This document shows, in pieces, positions 20,240 to 49,631 of a stretch of 64,000 bases of DNA. Position 1 is the stretch's first letter; every line of letters begins with the position of its first letter. The notes beneath the pieces are model-generated. The model ran no database searches, was not told where the DNA came from, and saw nothing but the letters and a program-made list of their open reading frames with translations. Made by a program: the position numbers and the translations under genes. This DNA comes from Phycisphaerales bacterium (GTDB taxonomy: Bacteria; Planctomycetota; Phycisphaerae; Phycisphaerales; UBA1924): positions 1 through 64,000 of the forward strand of contig JAJVHS010000045.1 of NCBI GenBank assembly GCA_022072615.1, written 5' to 3'.

Positions 20240-20442
20240 GATGACCTCCAAGCGCTCGGCACGCGGAGCGGGCGCTCGATCCACGGTGGCGGATGCACGC
20301 CGCGCGACGGCGCCTGGCGTCCCGAGCCAAGGACTCTAGGTATCCGGCAGGCGACACTCGTCACCGAAATCTGCCGCGCATGTGAACGGCATGCGAACAC
20401 GTCCGCGGTCGCCTCGGCGCCGTGCCGCGAGAACAATCGGCC

Positions 20443-20802
20443 ATGCGAGTCGCGATCATCGGCGCTTCCTCGGACCGGTCCAAGTACGGCAACAAGTCGC
20501 TGCGGGCGCACCTGCGACGCGGCCACGAGGTCATCCCGGTGAACCCCAACGAATCGACGGTCGAAGGGCTGAAGGCGTACGCGTCGATCCGGGATGTGCC
20601 CGGTGATCTGGACCGCGTCTCGATGTACGTACCGCCCGCGATCGGCGCCACGCTCATGGCCGATATCGCGGGCAGGGGGAATATCAAGGAAGTCTGGCTC
20701 AACCCGGGAGCCGAGTCGGAGGAAGTCATCGCGGCGGCCCGGGCGGTCGGGATCGAGCCCATTCTGGGCTGCTCGATCATCGACATCGGTGAACGTCCCT
20801 GA
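20443..20802 (+). CDS. CoA-binding domain protein
   Basis: This 119-residue Rossmann-fold protein of the CoA-binding (COG1832, YccU-like) family begins MRVAIIGASSDRSKYGNK, which contains the nucleotide-binding loop. HLRRGHEVIPVNP and the later LNPGAESEEV are characteristic. Relatives bind CoA or nucleotides without a known reaction. An upstream in-frame ATG seven codons earlier is possible. It is divergent from the peroxiredoxin gene. Confidence 0.85.
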   Translation: MRVAIIGASSDRSKYGNKSLRAHLRRGHEVIPVNPNESTVEGLKAYASIRDVPGDLDRVSMYVPPAIGATLMADIAGRGNIKEVWLNPGAESEEVIAAARAVGIEPILGCSIIDIGERP

Positions 20803-20963
20803 CGCGCTCACCTCGACCGCCCGTCTTTCTGCCGCCTCACCACGAGCGCACGCACGGCGTTTCCGACCTGCCGCGGGCCAGGGGACCCGCGACGCCCCCA
20901 CCCTTCCCCATCACGGACCTCTCTTCCCTCGCTCGCCAACGCCCCCGCGAGGCCCCCACGCGC

Positions 20964-20987
20964 TCCCCTACTCCCCCACTCCCCCAC
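20964..20987 (+). repeat. Octamer array, 3 TCCCCCAC units
   Basis: Three tandem octamers, TCCCCTAC then TCCCCCAC twice, in a C-rich stretch. The unit differs from the GGCA family but shares the 8-bp period. Confidence 0.7.
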
Positions 20988-21029
20988 TTCGCCGTCCGTG
21001 CGTGCGGCAGGACCGCCGCCCAACCGATG

Positions 21030-21077
21030 CGAGTCAACCCGTCGCAGGCGCTTATCAGGCTGCGACGGATTGACTCG
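21030..21077. repeat. 18-bp inverted repeat
   Basis: Arms 21030-21047 and 21060-21077 are complementary at 17 of 18 positions, with a 12-base loop. No T-run follows directly. The following 21078-21103 forms a second perfect stem (GCTCGCGAA with TTCGCGAGC, 8-base loop). Confidence 0.85.
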
Positions 21078-21188
21078 GCTCGCGAATCTCACCGTTCGCG
21101 AGCGTGCGCCGTGCGTGCTCGGTCGGTCGAATGCCGGTGCTCGAGCCCCGCCACGGCGGGATAATCCATACGTCGGTATCCTAATTCT

Positions 21189-21216
21189 GGCTGATCATCA
21201 AATCAAGCCTTTTTTT
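21189..21216 (+). terminator. Rho-independent terminator
   Basis: GGCTGAT pairs with ATC(A)AGCC across a short loop, with one bulged A, and seven T follow. It is oriented on the plus strand, 387 bases after the CoA-binding gene stop, so it probably ends either a long 3' UTR or a separate small RNA. Confidence 0.6.
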
Positions 21217-21470
21217 GTCACTTCAGGTTCTCGGAACATGACACCGGCGGCCCCGTGGCGCGGGCCCGCGCGGTGCTTCACGCGCGACGTGAACGCCGCC
21301 AGAACGGTGATCCCGCCGACGACGACCGCGCTGCCCGACCGGGCGGCGCCCTGCCGCGGTGCGGCTGTCTTTCTTCTCGTGGCAAGCGACCGGGAGTAGC
21401 CGGCGGCGCCGAGATTCAGCACGTCGCCCGGCCGGCGCTGAGAACTTCATCGGAGAGTGTTCCCGCGCGC

Positions 21471-21962
21471 TCAGGATTTCATGTTGATGTACTGCAGGGG
21501 GATCCCGACGTCCGACGATCCGAGCATCTTGATCACGGCTTGGAGATCGTCGATCTTCTTGCCGGTGACTCGCAGCTCGTCGCCCTGGATCGAGGCCTGC
21601 ACCTTGAGCCCGGATTCCTTGATCATCCTGACGATGCTCTTGGCCTTTTCCTGCTCGATGCCGTCGTTGATCTTGACCTCGACCTTCGCCTTGCCGGCCA
21701 AGGCGTGTTCGAATTCGCCCCAGGAGAAGGTCTTGAGCGTGATGCCGCGCTTGACGGCGGCGGTCTCGAACATCTCGCGCACGCCCTTGAGCTTGCTGTC
21801 GTCCTCGGTGACGATCTTGAGCTTCTTCTCCTTCTTGTCGAGGTTGAACTCGACGGGCACGCCGCGGAAATCGAAGCGCGCCGCGATGGCCTTCTGGGTG
21901 TTGTTGATGGCGTTGTCGAGCTCGGCGTAATTGACGCGGGAGACGATGTCAAAGGAGGGCAT
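21471..21962 (-). CDS. yajQ: YajQ-family nucleotide-binding protein
   Basis: This 163-residue protein belongs to the YajQ family (UPF0234), whose members bind cyclic di-GMP or other nucleotides and act with regulators. The N-terminus MPSFDIVSRVNYAELDNAIN is typical, as are FDFRG, KGITLK-like (KRGITLKTFSWG) and the end DVGIPLQYINM. Full family length. It lies alone, 57 bases from the MscS gene stop on the same strand. Confidence 0.95.
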   Translation of the reverse strand: MPSFDIVSRVNYAELDNAINNTQKAIAARFDFRGVPVEFNLDKKEKKLKIVTEDDSKLKGVREMFETAAVKRGITLKTFSWGEFEHALAGKAKVEVKINDGIEQEKAKSIVRMIKESGLKVQASIQGDELRVTGKKIDDLQAVIKMLGSSDVGIPLQYINMKS

Positions 21963-28417: not shown

Positions 28418-28456
28418 AAAAACACAACCGCCGCGGGCGAACCCCGCGGCGGTTGT
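28418..28456 (-). terminator. Rho-independent terminator of tRNA-Ala
   Basis: A perfect 14-bp GC-rich stem (arms 28424-28437 and 28443-28456, five-base loop) is followed on the minus strand by five T. It begins seven bases beyond the tRNA 3' end. Because the stem is symmetric it may also slow transcription from the plus strand, but the T-run is only on the minus side. Confidence 0.9.
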
Positions 28457-28462
28457 CGTAAG

Positions 28463-28537
28463 TGGAGGCGACGAGACTCGAACTCGTGACCTCTTCCATG
28501 CCATGGAAGCGCTCTACCAAAACTGAGCTACGCCCCC
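28463..28537 (-). tRNA. tRNA-Ala(GGC)
   Basis: The minus strand folds as a full cloverleaf of 75 bases: acceptor GGGGGCG with CGCCTCC, D arm GCTC/GAGC, anticodon stem CTTCC/GGAAG, T arm ACGAG/CTCGT with loop TTCGAGT. The seven-base anticodon loop ATGGCAT gives anticodon GGC, which reads GCC and GCU alanine codons. The third acceptor pair is G3-U70, the identity mark of alanine tRNAs. The discriminator is A, and CCA is not encoded. Confidence 0.96.
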
Positions 28538-38542: not shown

Positions 38543-38646
38543 GTCGCCCTCCTGGACTTGACGGACAACGACCCAGCCGCCTCCGGCACGGCGGCTGGGT
38601 CGGAGCGTCGCGACCATGGTACCGCCACCATCCGCGTTCGCACGCC

Positions 38647-45038: not shown

Positions 45039-45971
45039 ATGACGACATCCATGGTGATCCTCTGCCCGGGTCAGGGCGCACAGTCGGTCGGGATGGGTCG
45101 CGCCTGGCGCGCGGCGTCGGCCGAGGCCCGGGCCATCTTCGATCAGGCCGACAAGATCCTCGGCACGCGGCTGGGTTCGCCGCTCTCCACGCTCTGCTTT
45201 GAAGGTCCCGAGGAGCGCCTCAACCGCACCGACGTCTCCCAGCCCGCGATCTTCACGGTCTCGATCGCCTGCTGGAAGGGCCTCATCGCCGCGGGCGGGT
45301 TCGGCAACGGCGAGGCTCCCATCGCCGCCACCGCCGGCCTCTCATTAGGGGAATATACGGCCCTGGTGCTCGGCGGTTCAATGGCGTTCGCCGACGCTCT
45401 CGAGCTGGTCGCCCTGCGCGGTCGAGCGATGCAGGACGCCGCCGAAGCATCGCCGGGCGGGATGGTCGCACTGATCGGCGCTGACGAATCGCAGGCCGAC
45501 GACATCTGCGCCAAGGCCCGGGGGTCCGACGTCCTGGTCTGCGCCAACTACAACGCGCCCGGGCAGATCGTCCTCAGCGGCCACAAGGTCGCCTGCGACC
45601 GAGCCGCGGGCGTCGCGTCGGAGATGGGCCTGCGAGCCACGCCGCTGACCGTCGCCGGGGCGTTCCATTCGCCGCTCATGCAGCCTGCCGCGGACCGCCT
45701 CGCCGCCGCCCTCGCCAGGACCGCGATCACGCCGGCCAAGGTCACCGTCGTCTCCAACGTCACCGCCCAGCCGCACGCGGCCGACTCGGCCTCCATCCGC
45801 CAGCGCCTTGTCGATCAGCTCACGAGCCCGGTACGCTGGTCGCAGTCCTGCCAGTGGCTGACGTCGACAATCAAGGCCGAGTACCACGAGCTGGCGCCCG
45901 GCAAGACCCTCGCGGGACTGATGCGAAGAATCGACAAGAACACGAAGGTGATCACCCATGACGAGCCGTAA
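45039..45971 (+). CDS. fabD: Malonyl-CoA:ACP transacylase
   Basis: This 310-residue enzyme loads malonate from CoA onto acyl carrier protein for fatty acid synthesis. The N-terminal ILCPGQGAQSVGMG and the nucleophile Ser102 in AGLSLGEYTALV are diagnostic, and the catalytic His lies in GAFHSPLM. Full family length. No other fab genes are adjacent. Its end overlaps the lipoprotein gene start by 14 bases. Confidence 0.95.
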   Translation: MTTSMVILCPGQGAQSVGMGRAWRAASAEARAIFDQADKILGTRLGSPLSTLCFEGPEERLNRTDVSQPAIFTVSIACWKGLIAAGGFGNGEAPIAATAGLSLGEYTALVLGGSMAFADALELVALRGRAMQDAAEASPGGMVALIGADESQADDICAKARGSDVLVCANYNAPGQIVLSGHKVACDRAAGVASEMGLRATPLTVAGAFHSPLMQPAADRLAAALARTAITPAKVTVVSNVTAQPHAADSASIRQRLVDQLTSPVRWSQSCQWLTSTIKAEYHELAPGKTLAGLMRRIDKNTKVITHDEP

Positions 45972-46761
45972 CAGCAGATCCGCGAGAACGATGGCGCGAG
46001 CCCTGGCGTGCGCCGCGTCCATCGCCACCGCCGCGCCGGTGCTCATCGCGGCCGTCGGAGTTGCCGTGTCGGTGAGCGGCTGCAAGAAGGAAGAGCCGCC
46101 GCCCCCCCCGCCACCGCCGCCGCCGCCGCCACCGCCGCCGCCCGAGCCGGTGCAGATCGACCCGCTGTTCCAGGCGATGAAGATCGACGCCCGGGTGCAG
46201 TTCCCGCAGGAGAAGGCGCCGACCAACGAGGAGTTCGCTCGCGGCATCCTCTCGCTCGCCGACGCGCTGGTGAAGGGCGACGCCGGGGCGATGCAGTCGC
46301 TGCTCGACACGACCGGCGAGTCCGCGCTGTCGACGCTCATGAGCTCGGGCGAGTGGGAGCAGGAAACCGGCAAGATCGAAGCGATCCGCGTCATCCGCGT
46401 CGTCGGGTCCGGGACGGGCGGCACCGTGTCCATGGCGATCCAGGATCCGCGGGGCGCCTACGTCCTCAACTGGGCGGCAACCAAGACGGGCGAAAAGCTG
46501 GCCTTCGCCGGTCGCCCGGGCCCCGATGAGATCAAGCCCCGAGCCAGCGACTGGGAGCGGCCGGGCGTCTCGCTCGAACCCGGAGCGACGATCGGATCTT
46601 CCGCGCCCGGTTCCGGCGACGCCGGCGAGGAAGAAGGCGACACGCCCACCGAGGAAGCCCCGGCTCCGGCGGAAGAAGAGACCCCGGGCAGCGACGAGAC
46701 GATCAAGCGGACGCCCGCCGGGCCCGTCAAGATCCCCAAGCCCGGCGACGGCGGGGGCTGA
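45958..46761 (+). CDS. Lipoprotein with polyproline stretch
   Basis: This 267-residue protein has a signal ending in lipobox SGC followed by KKEEP and a run of 16 prolines (about residues 47-62). The middle (about 70-170) is a globular alpha/beta region without a known family; the C-terminal 80 residues are Glu/Pro/Ala-rich. Long proline runs stall ribosomes and require elongation factor P, and in the envelope they can span a distance. Overlap with fabD suggests one operon. The stop is followed by a GGCA array. Confidence 0.75.
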   Translation: MTSRNSRSARTMARALACAASIATAAPVLIAAVGVAVSVSGCKKEEPPPPPPPPPPPPPPPPEPVQIDPLFQAMKIDARVQFPQEKAPTNEEFARGILSLADALVKGDAGAMQSLLDTTGESALSTLMSSGEWEQETGKIEAIRVIRVVGSGTGGTVSMAIQDPRGAYVLNWAATKTGEKLAFAGRPGPDEIKPRASDWERPGVSLEPGATIGSSAPGSGDAGEEEGDTPTEEAPAPAEEETPGSDETIKRTPAGPVKIPKPGDGGG

Positions 46762-46768
46762 AAAAGCA

Positions 46769-46799
46769 GGCACAGGGCACCGAGGCACGAAGGCACAAA
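46769..46799 (+). repeat. GGCA array after lipoprotein gene
   Basis: One heptamer GGCACAG and three octamers GGCACCGA, GGCACGAA and GGCACAAA start 7 bases after the lipoprotein stop codon. It is the plus-strand arm of an inverted pair with the array at 46922-46977. Confidence 0.85.
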
Positions 46800-46921
46800 G
46801 GGCGGGACACCCTGCCCTTTTTCTTTTGCTTCGATACATGTGCCGACGGCAGGCCGTGGACAGCACGCCGCGGACAGGCACGCCGCGGACAGGCACGCGC
46901 ATCAGCTTCCGTCGTTTTCCC

Positions 46922-46977
46922 TGTGTGCCTCTGTGCCTTCGTGCCTCTGTGCCTTCGTGCCTCTGTGCCTTCGTGCC
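46922..46977 (-). repeat. Octamer array, 7 units, inverted to the previous
   Basis: Seven units read TGTGTGCC, TCTGTGCC and TTCGTGCC in alternation on the plus strand, i.e. GGCACAGA and GGCACGAA on the minus. It ends 32 bases before the GH38-like gene start. Between the arms a 15- to 16-bp direct repeat (GCACGCCGCGGACAG-like) occurs at about 46860-46900. Confidence 0.9.
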
Positions 46978-47009: not shown

Positions 47010-49631
47010 ATGCCCCGCCCGCCGCTGTATTACACGTTCGGCAACCACATGCACTGGGTCGACATGCAGTGGCTCTGGGGGTACGACGTCCTGCCCGGGT
47101 CGGTCGACGACATGCTGCGGCTGATCGAGGAGACGGGCGCTCGCGGCAACATCAACTTCGACGCCATCGGCTACGAGAAGATGGCCGTCGAGTGCCCCGA
47201 GCACCTGGCCAAGCTGCGGGACGCGGTCGCTCGGGGGCTGGTCGAGCCCGTCGGCTGCTCGTACGGCCAGCCCTACGGCCTGTTCCACGGGCTCGAATCG
47301 AACATCCGCCAACTCATCTACGGCGTGCGCACGACACGCCGCCTGCTGGGCGTTCGCCCGCGCACGTTCTGGGAAGAGGAGTTCTATTTCTTTCCGCAGC
47401 TCCCGCAGCTTCTGGCGCAGTGCGGCTACACGGGCGCGTGCCTGTTCTTCCAGTGGACGTGGCACACGCCCGAGATCCCAAAGGAGAACGGCTCGCTGAT
47501 CCTCTGGGAAGGCGCCGACGGGACCCGCCTGCCCGCGCTGCCTCGCAACGACCTGAACGTGCACCAGTGGCCAGAAGACTTCGACGGCCTCCTGGAGAAG
47601 GTCGAAAGCAGAGGCAATGGGCAACGGGCATCAGGCAGCAGTGAACGCATGATCCGGGCGAGAGCTGAATCACCAGCTCTTCCTGATGCCCGATGCCTGG
47701 TGCCCGATGCCTCGACCAGCCCGGCTTCCGCACCAGCGATAGTCCAATGGCTCGAACTCATGCCGAGCAAAGACTGGATGTGCCGCAGCGAGGTGCTGCT
47801 GCCGCGGCTCAAGGAGCTGATGAACGACCCACGGTTTGAAGTCCGCCCGCGAACGGCGGGCGCCCTCATCGCCGAGCTGCTCGGGGGTCGCGCTCTCGAG
47901 CCCGCGGCGGATCTCCCGGCTCGCCGCTACACCATGGACGACGTGTGGCACGGCATGACGCTCGGCAAGAACGCCGATGCGCACCCGCGAGCCAGCCGCG
48001 AGACCGAAGCGATACTGCTCCACGCCGAGGCGCTCTCCGCGACCGTGAGCCTGCTCGGCCGGCCGTACCCGAGCTGGGACGTCTACCCGACGTGGGAACT
48101 CGACGAAGCCTGGCGCGAGCTGCTCGCCGCGCAGCACCACGACAACCACGAGTGCGAGGGCCTCTGCGGCTTTGTCGGCCATCACCAGATGCAGCGGGCG
48201 CAGGCAGCCGCCGCCGAAGCGGCGGGTCGCGTCGATCGGCTGCTCCGCTCGCGATCCGGCGAGAGCGACGACGCGTTCACCAACCCGCTCGGTTGGACGC
48301 TGCCCCTCGAACACTCGTCGGTACCGCCCTTCGGGTACTCGAGCAGCGCCACGGATCCCGAGGAAGAAGGCCCCGACTCCGAAACCGATCTCCCGGATTT
48401 CACCGTCACGCTCGGCGGCAAGCCCGCGGATCGCGTCGCGAAGGGCGCGGGGAAAGACGAGGACGGGGACCCGCAGATCACGTGGAAGTACGCGTTCGGC
48501 GAGCAGTCCGTGGTCGCCGCCGCGCGACCCATGGAGAACGGCTGGGCCCTGACTGTGGACTTCCGCGACTCCACCGGCGAACTGCCGATCAAGCCCGGCC
48601 CGGGCTTTGGCGGCGCTCTTGAAGTTGTGTTCCGCATCGGCGCAGATCAGCGGCTCATCGCCGACTCGCCGGGCACGTCCGACACGGCGACGCCATCGAT
48701 CTCCGGCAAGCGCAAGTATCCGCAGGGCGACTGGATGACCTCCCCTCAGTGGTTCGAGCCGGTCAACCGGCCGTTCACCGCTCGCTCGTTCGTGGACGTC
48801 TGCGGCGCCGATGGTTCGGGCACGCTCATCGTGCACGACGGCTCGCAGCAGTGGTTCCGCGACGAGCGTTCACTCCGCGCCGTGCTCACCGCGTACGACC
48901 CCTGGGATGAACAGCGGTACGGCGTTCCCGGGCACGGGGTCGCGAGCTTCGTGCTCATCAGGCACGGCCCGATTGCACACGCCGACCGAGTGCGCCTCGC
49001 GACCGAGGCCGCGGACGCCGGGAGAGTCTTCGCGACGCACGCCGCGCCTGTCGGCGGAGGAACACCGACGCCCGCGGATGCTGTTCCGGCACGCTTCGGC
49101 CCGCTTGAAGTGTGCGGTGCGCCGGGCGTCCTCGCCCACGCGTTCTTCCGCGAATCCATGAAAGGCGGCGAGCACTTCCCGGACTGGGCCGGGCACCGCA
49201 TGGCTCGTGATTCCGGGGGCGCCTGCACGCACCCGTTTGTCATCCGCCTGGTTGAGTGGAACGGCGAGCCGGCGGAAGTCACTCTCAAACTCGCCGGGCC
49301 CGTCGCGATGGCCGCCAAGACCAACCTGCTCGGTGAGGTCCTGCACGACGGCCCGCCTCGCCGAGCCGTCGGGGAGGGTGGTGGCTGGTCGCCGAGCGAC
49401 ACCGGCTGGCTCACCGTCGAGCCCGCCGACCCGCCCGAGTGGGCCATCGTCAACGGCAGGCCCATCGAGTTCCGCGGCGAGCCGATCACGTGGTCGCAGG
49501 TCCGCTTCAGGATGCGGCCCCGCGAGATCACGACGATCTACGCCGACATGCTCATGGGTCGCAAGGAATTCCGCGACCTCGACGCCAAGCGCGAAGTGTG
49601 GGCGACGGTGCACAAGCAGCCTTCCACCTGA
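47010..49631 (+). CDS. GH38-like alpha-mannosidase-type glycoside hydrolase
   Basis: This 873-residue protein resembles the glycoside hydrolase 38 N-terminal catalytic domain (NHMHWVDMQW, NINFDAIGYEKM, the segment GLVEPVGCSYGQPYGLFHGLESNIRQLIYG, RPRTFWEEEFYFFPQ), followed by a mid helix domain (about 290-420, LLAAQHHDNHECEG) and a beta-rich C-terminal half. It has no signal peptide, so it acts in the cytoplasm unless exported otherwise. The ATG at MPRPPLYY is chosen; the frame is open upstream through the octamer array but that would encode repeat peptide. Residues about 202-234 come from a palindromic repeat element and have no counterpart in the family. Confidence 0.8.
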   Translation: MPRPPLYYTFGNHMHWVDMQWLWGYDVLPGSVDDMLRLIEETGARGNINFDAIGYEKMAVECPEHLAKLRDAVARGLVEPVGCSYGQPYGLFHGLESNIRQLIYGVRTTRRLLGVRPRTFWEEEFYFFPQLPQLLAQCGYTGACLFFQWTWHTPEIPKENGSLILWEGADGTRLPALPRNDLNVHQWPEDFDGLLEKVESRGNGQRASGSSERMIRARAESPALPDARCLVPDASTSPASAPAIVQWLELMPSKDWMCRSEVLLPRLKELMNDPRFEVRPRTAGALIAELLGGRALEPAADLPARRYTMDDVWHGMTLGKNADAHPRASRETEAILLHAEALSATVSLLGRPYPSWDVYPTWELDEAWRELLAAQHHDNHECEGLCGFVGHHQMQRAQAAAAEAAGRVDRLLRSRSGESDDAFTNPLGWTLPLEHSSVPPFGYSSSATDPEEEGPDSETDLPDFTVTLGGKPADRVAKGAGKDEDGDPQITWKYAFGEQSVVAAARPMENGWALTVDFRDSTGELPIKPGPGFGGALEVVFRIGADQRLIADSPGTSDTATPSISGKRKYPQGDWMTSPQWFEPVNRPFTARSFVDVCGADGSGTLIVHDGSQQWFRDERSLRAVLTAYDPWDEQRYGVPGHGVASFVLIRHGPIAHADRVRLATEAADAGRVFATHAAPVGGGTPTPADAVPARFGPLEVCGAPGVLAHAFFRESMKGGEHFPDWAGHRMARDSGGACTHPFVIRLVEWNGEPAEVTLKLAGPVAMAAKTNLLGEVLHDGPPRRAVGEGGGWSPSDTGWLTVEPADPPEWAIVNGRPIEFRGEPITWSQVRFRMRPREITTIYADMLMGRKEFRDLDAKREVWATVHKQPST
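47613..47711. repeat. Palindromic GGCAnnn heptamer element inside a gene
   Basis: Four heptamers (GGCAATG, GGCAACG, GGCATCA, GGCAGCA; 47613-47640), a central hairpin AGAGCTG-N6-CAGCTCT (47661-47680), then four inverted heptamers (TGATGCC, CGATGCC, TGGTGCC, CGATGCC; 47684-47711). The element is 99 bases, exactly 33 codons, and keeps the mannosidase frame open. Confidence 0.82.

Follow-up and report, generated by a model that had tools for sequence, protein, structure and literature searches.

The window analysed here, a 64,000-nucleotide stretch of a 4.4-Mb Phycisphaerales genome assembled in 104 contigs, contains a 668-base gap in which a structured element lies between two genes that converge on it. 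A gene for a CoA-binding-domain protein, for which a longer open reading frame starts at 20422, ends on the + strand with its stop at 20802, and a gene of family PF04461, which we take to be YajQ, ends on the − strand at 21471, so that the two face each other across the gap as a preliminary description of this DNA had stated. The same description put nearly 400 bases between the element and the closest gene end, which is wrong: the CoA-binding stop is ~230 bases before the inverted repeat and the YajQ-family stop is 254 bases beyond the T-run, and it is the T-run alone that lies ~400 bases (about 408 nt) from the CoA-binding stop. Five open reading frames in the gap were searched against Pfam, with no match at E ≤ 0.01. 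The YajQ/DUF520 gene is patchy, with a match at E ≤ 0.001 in 11 of the 41 genomes searched, its own included. The features of the locus are as follows.

20443–20802, + strand: gene for a CoA-binding-domain protein (PF13380), upstream of the element, whose + transcript would enter it
20886–20985, + strand: C-rich, G-poor, rut-like tract (62 C and 14 G per 100)
21023–21029, + strand: 5' strand of P1, the 7-bp closing stem (pairing probability 0.93–1.0)
21030–21077, + strand: P2, 18-bp inverted repeat with a 12-nt loop (repeat scan, fold and inverted-repeat score)
21078–21103, + strand: P3, hairpin of 9–10 bp, flush with P2 (repeat scan and fold)
21107–21158, + strand: P4, interrupted GC-rich hairpin (predicted fold)
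21171–21177, + strand: 3' strand of P1 (predicted fold)
21178–21188, + strand: AU-rich linker, predicted unpaired (mean 0.86)
21189–21216, + strand: weak terminator hairpin (−5.4 kcal/mol) and T7 (fold and energy)
21471–21962, − strand: YajQ/DUF520 family gene (PF04461), the convergent neighbour

The predicted fold and its background

The + strand from 21022 to 21219 is predicted to fold into a compact four-way junction of −97.4 kcal/mol, in which most pairs have a probability above 0.9. An 18-bp inverted repeat, a 9-bp hairpin and a further GC hairpin had been described before, and all three are present: the P2 arms (21030–21047 and 21060–21077) pair at 17 of 18 positions with a single C/A mismatch on the + strand, the P3 arms (21078–21086 and 21095–21103) form 9 perfect pairs, and P4 occupies 21107–21158. 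To these we add P1, which is flush with the 18-bp repeat, and a small hairpin that follows P4 in the predicted fold, before the unpaired linker. What had been called a clear T-tailed terminator does consist of a hairpin (21189–21209) with T7 (21210–21216) directly after it, but the hairpin is weak, reaching only −6.6 kcal/mol when the first T is included, and 21189–21216 is not among the entries of a consensus terminator scan. By comparison, a listing of hairpin-T runs in the scanned sample, itself cut at −6, has 26 that are intergenic, and 20 of these are at −12 or better.

The local structure is real and unusual. The region 21015–21220 folds with a z of −5.4 relative to 200 dinucleotide shuffles, none of which folds as well, and 21021–21220 on the + strand ranks fourth by fold after dinucleotide regression among 15,224 200-nt strand-windows in 384 kb of the source genome (67.9% G+C), a non-random sample that comprises the window and, from contigs C1 and C3–C17, the first 20 kb each, with its genes predicted by a crude GC-by-position script. 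The three strand-windows that out-rank it lie one each in two other contigs and in a repetitive stretch at 46771. P2 has the top inverted-repeat score in this sample (15; Watson-Crick, ungapped, loop 3–20), where four repeats score at least 13. Simulating the 64-kb window eight times with a Markov model gave a single repeat that scored 13 or more and none with 15. Two of the three repeats of the sample other than P2 adjoin a minus-strand T-run, one as A7 at L128:129 and one beyond a tRNA gene. The T7 is one of only four runs of at least seven A or T in the 384 kb. A flush closing stem of at least 7 bp appeared in 1.2% of 20,000 shuffled flanks, in a test that used single-base shuffles and was devised after the stem had been seen.

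Other repeats and hairpins are found elsewhere in the window. In fold residual the + window at 46771 stands above the element, in first place among the 15,224; 46757–46970 lies between two + genes and holds, by eye, a GGCAC-AAGG-CACGAAGG-like repeat in direct and inverted copies, with a second stretch of similar word-like repeats at ~47600–47710; the open reading frame at 45958–46761 appears by eye to have a lipoprotein-like start and then a long proline run. A perfect 13-bp inverted repeat with an 8-nt loop at 38569–38602 is among the four that score at least 13, and at 28424–28456 a strong 14-bp hairpin with T5 on the − strand, directly beyond a tRNA-Ala gene (28462–28537, −), has the look of a textbook terminator.

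The stems differ in how well they tolerate sequence context. P2 and P3 keep a pairing probability of at least 0.89 in all four transcript lengths folded. P1 and P4 drop to 0.31 when the transcript is taken from the stop codon on (20803–21219), the one length of the four in which P4 is displaced by competing upstream sequence, and are restored in a longer transcript in which the terminator hairpin drops to 0.25. Complementary stretches (CGCACGCACGG / CCGTGCGTGCG) occur at 20847–20859, 20990–21006 and 21108–21118, and these may allow the upstream 3' UTR either to pair with itself or to pair with the 5' side of P4.

Searches for relatives and known RNA families

The preliminary description called for an RNA family search, and this returned no Rfam match to the element at the gathering score, the sole match in the 64-kb window being the tRNA at 28463–28537. 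At E ≤ 10 nothing credible was found in the gap: three sub-threshold matches all fall on the − strand, and the longest of them (21030–21167) scores 11.5 bits, where the gathering score is 50. The model for 6S RNA (RF00013) has no match in the genome, while the same search is positive in 5 of 14 control genomes. A CsrB-like sponge was rejected as well. Hairpin loops carrying GGA motifs are a hallmark of CsrB-type RNAs, and the element has only two such motifs (at 21067 and 21159), neither in a predicted hairpin loop.

Nucleotide comparison of 211 bases with 61 genomes (own included) using blastn gives some match at E ≤ 1 in 58 of them; besides the self match, the matches listed are short, covering at most 41 query bases with a best E of 0.002, and the whole gap compared with relatives' loci likewise gives short pieces only (best E 2e-4). 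A covariance model, R1, was built from the window sequence alone, entered twice. Among 163 genomes of the family, which include its own and two congeners, R1 has two non-self matches at E ≤ 1 (17–20 bits), and among 397 genomes of the class, a set that includes its own and overlaps the family set, it has two at E ≤ 0.1 (19–20 bits); these large searches used strict filters that passed only 15 and 6 candidates per genome to scoring, so that distant relatives could be missed. All four matches were rejected: on alignment they have many broken pairs, and the one in L124 is on the reverse strand, where an apparent regulator gene, read by eye, begins. The family search found no match in the whole congener genomes, and R1 run with filters off at the two congener YajQ loci gives nothing above 5.7 bits. 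As no convincing match was seen in the family or class genomes, a conserved housekeeping RNA is unlikely on this sequence comparison.

The gene order of the two congeners was read by eye together with translated and nucleotide comparison. G001 has the CoA-binding and YajQ genes in the same orientation, with proteins 67% and 75% identical, at a distance of ~2.45 kb and with two other reading frames between them; neither the C-rich tract nor the hairpins were found at this locus by eye or with the covariance model. In G002, YajQ is 86% identical and its neighbour is related to the peroxiredoxin gene of the window (PF00578); a search for the CoA-binding protein gave no match there. The preliminary description had named missing conservation of pairing in relatives, along with a missing transcript, as what would speak against its proposal. 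On the first of these, no searched relative shows the pairing and none was found carrying the element, so covariation cannot be counted; a young RNA would also fail to show conserved pairing.

The element is not a repeated one: it is present in a single copy in the genome, and the one further place matched is its own P2 read from the opposite strand. Plasmid and phage collections contain no similar DNA, and viral contigs contain one exact match to a 17-base piece that lacks the second arm.

Proposed termination of the CoA-binding transcript and alternative explanations

We read the stretch as the 3' UTR and transcription-termination region of the + strand CoA-binding gene, with a probability of roughly 0.48. 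A C-rich tract starts ~80 bases past the stop of this gene, and 20886–20985 has the highest C-minus-G value of any 100-nt stretch in the 384 kb (48; next 47), a tie for the top when 76,460 strand-windows are taken on a 10-nt grid; its mean unpaired value is 0.63 in the predicted 20803–21219 RNA. Rho is encoded in the genome, with a score of 638.6 bits against a family cut-off of 509.45. As described in an excerpt of PMC7815308, Rho acts from a C-rich, G-poor, unstructured rut site and typically releases the transcript 100–200 nt downstream, and the 3' ends that result are processed by 3'-to-5' exonucleases. Because the order of the parts matches this excerpted description, and because the top C-over-G tract and a Rho gene are both present, we rank a 3' UTR and termination region above a free-standing small RNA. 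A scan confined to sigma-70-like promoters, with thresholds of 8 and 9 of 12 matches, found none on the + strand of the gap, which makes read-through from the CoA-binding gene the simplest source of a + transcript.

Past the stop codon at 20802, the RNA would enter the C-rich, G-poor and mostly unpaired tract, where Rho would load. RNA polymerase would be released over the next 100–200 nt or, if Rho fails, at the U7 tract (21210–21216), and P2, P3 and P4, closed by P1, would stop 3'-to-5' exonucleases and set a stable 3' end, from which a stable 3' fragment may accumulate. We infer all four steps: the CoA-binding gene as the source of the transcript, the loading of Rho, the termination and the protection of the 3' end. 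The reading is supported by the robust pairing of P2 and P3 and by the lack of a T-tailed terminator next to either gene end: 53 such terminators with a hairpin of −6 kcal/mol or better are listed in the sample, and none lies within the gap. Within the gap, the consensus scan lists just two candidates on the + strand, which fall inside 21346–21365, with 1.8 expected by chance in the scanned region.

Several observations count against a termination region. The T7 is far from the stop, whereas a hand count of comparable hairpin-T runs in the sample (at least T5, intergenic, after a same-strand gene, −6 or better) puts 10 of 16 within 100 nt of the gene. Rut sites are not reliably callable from composition, and as C-over-G stretches nearly as extreme also occur within predicted genes, the tract at 20886–20985 may be incidental. 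G001 keeps the CoA-binding gene without tract or hairpins, P1 and P4 weaken when folded from the stop codon and the terminator hairpin when folded in the longer transcript, and the compact four-way junction exceeds what a terminator needs. Even so, an ordinary gene end is the likeliest home of the structure.

A small RNA of ~195 nt (~21022–21216), whether transcribed from a promoter of its own that went unrecognised or cleaved out of the CoA-binding 3' UTR, and acting in trans through the linker at 21178–21188 or a bound protein, is possible but doubtful. P1, P2 and P3 are flush, a flush stem being rare among shuffled flanks in the post hoc test, the fold is better on the + strand, and the T7 tail is itself rare in the sample; 3' UTR-derived small RNAs processed by RNase E, such as OppZ and CarZ, are also known (PMC7398697, excerpt). 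The preliminary description took four stems and then a terminator as the layout of a small RNA, and as T-tailed + strand anatomy this is fair, but it lacks support from a sigma-70-like + promoter, from Rfam at the gathering score or from a convincing homologue among 162 other family genomes (two congeners included) and 396 other class genomes, was not found at the two congener loci with filters off, ends in a weak hairpin, and fits an mRNA 3' end too. A small RNA cut from the CoA-binding 3' UTR would satisfy both views. More specifically, and unlikely as a whole, a lineage-specific RNA of ~195 nt, built as a compact four-way junction with an exposed AU-rich linker, could be freed from the CoA-binding mRNA 3' end by combined Rho and U-tract termination, as a Phycisphaeraceae small RNA without a family in the Rfam copy searched.

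Three further explanations are much less probable. The AT-rich 21160–21216 holds two overlapping promoter-like sites on the − strand (9 and 8 of 12 matches), and 50-nt windows starting at 21160–21200 are the only ones in the gap with more than 50% AT. These sites count against the strand assigned in the preliminary description, and we therefore keep as a rival a minus-strand promoter that includes the T7 and drives a non-coding transcript with the hairpins at its 5' end; P2 alone slightly favours this strand (−34.8 versus −32.7 on +). We give it only a slim chance, as the sample holds many such sites (304 in 768 kb of strand), the listed T-tailed terminators include none on the − strand of the gap, and the fold is better on + both for the whole element (−97.4 versus −92.0) and for P1–P4 (−89.8 versus −82.8), where P1 is complete on + only, a U-G pair there being an A/C mismatch on − as read from the sequence. 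A DNA-level palindrome, whether a site for protein binding or recombination or what is left of an insertion specific to this lineage, would account for a repeat that is nearly perfect on both strands and an element found only in the source genome; it is nevertheless quite improbable given the single copy, the plasmid, phage and viral comparisons, and the lack of Pfam matches in the five gap reading frames searched. That the structure arose by chance in a GC-rich, fast-changing intergenic stretch and has no function is similarly remote: no conservation could be shown, three strand-windows out-rank it, and the fold of a single sequence is no evidence of function (PMC8250186, excerpt), but the z of −5.4, the top-scoring inverted repeat and the presence of the highest C-over-G tract and a T7 at the same place all argue against chance.

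The element is a structure seen in a single genome of those searched, and structures of this kind are, as we judge, mostly ordinary ends of genes. No dedicated paper on planctomycete small RNAs, transcriptomes or start sites was found by title, which makes a mapped 3' end here a concrete test of transcript ending, and one at the element would test how GC-rich planctomycetes end their transcripts.

Comparison with known systems

With 6S RNA (RF00013, a model of 187 positions) the element shares a length near 190 nt. The shape of 6S RNA is a long rod with a central bubble, unlike the four-way junction predicted here, and the genome has no match to its model. With RNAs of the OppZ and CarZ type, which are cut from 3' UTRs by RNase E (PMC7398697, excerpt), it shares a structured + strand mRNA tail that ends in a hairpin and T-run, but at ~195 nt it is far longer than the 52 bp given for oppZ in that excerpt, and it has no conserved seed or known target. 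Compared with Rho termination of the E. coli type with stabilizing 3' hairpins, the element, not found at the congener loci, adds a T7 tail and a closed multi-branch fold; what it shares with that system is a C-rich, G-poor tract, predicted to be mostly unpaired, after the stop, strong stem-loops within 200 nt after the tract, and a genome that encodes Rho.
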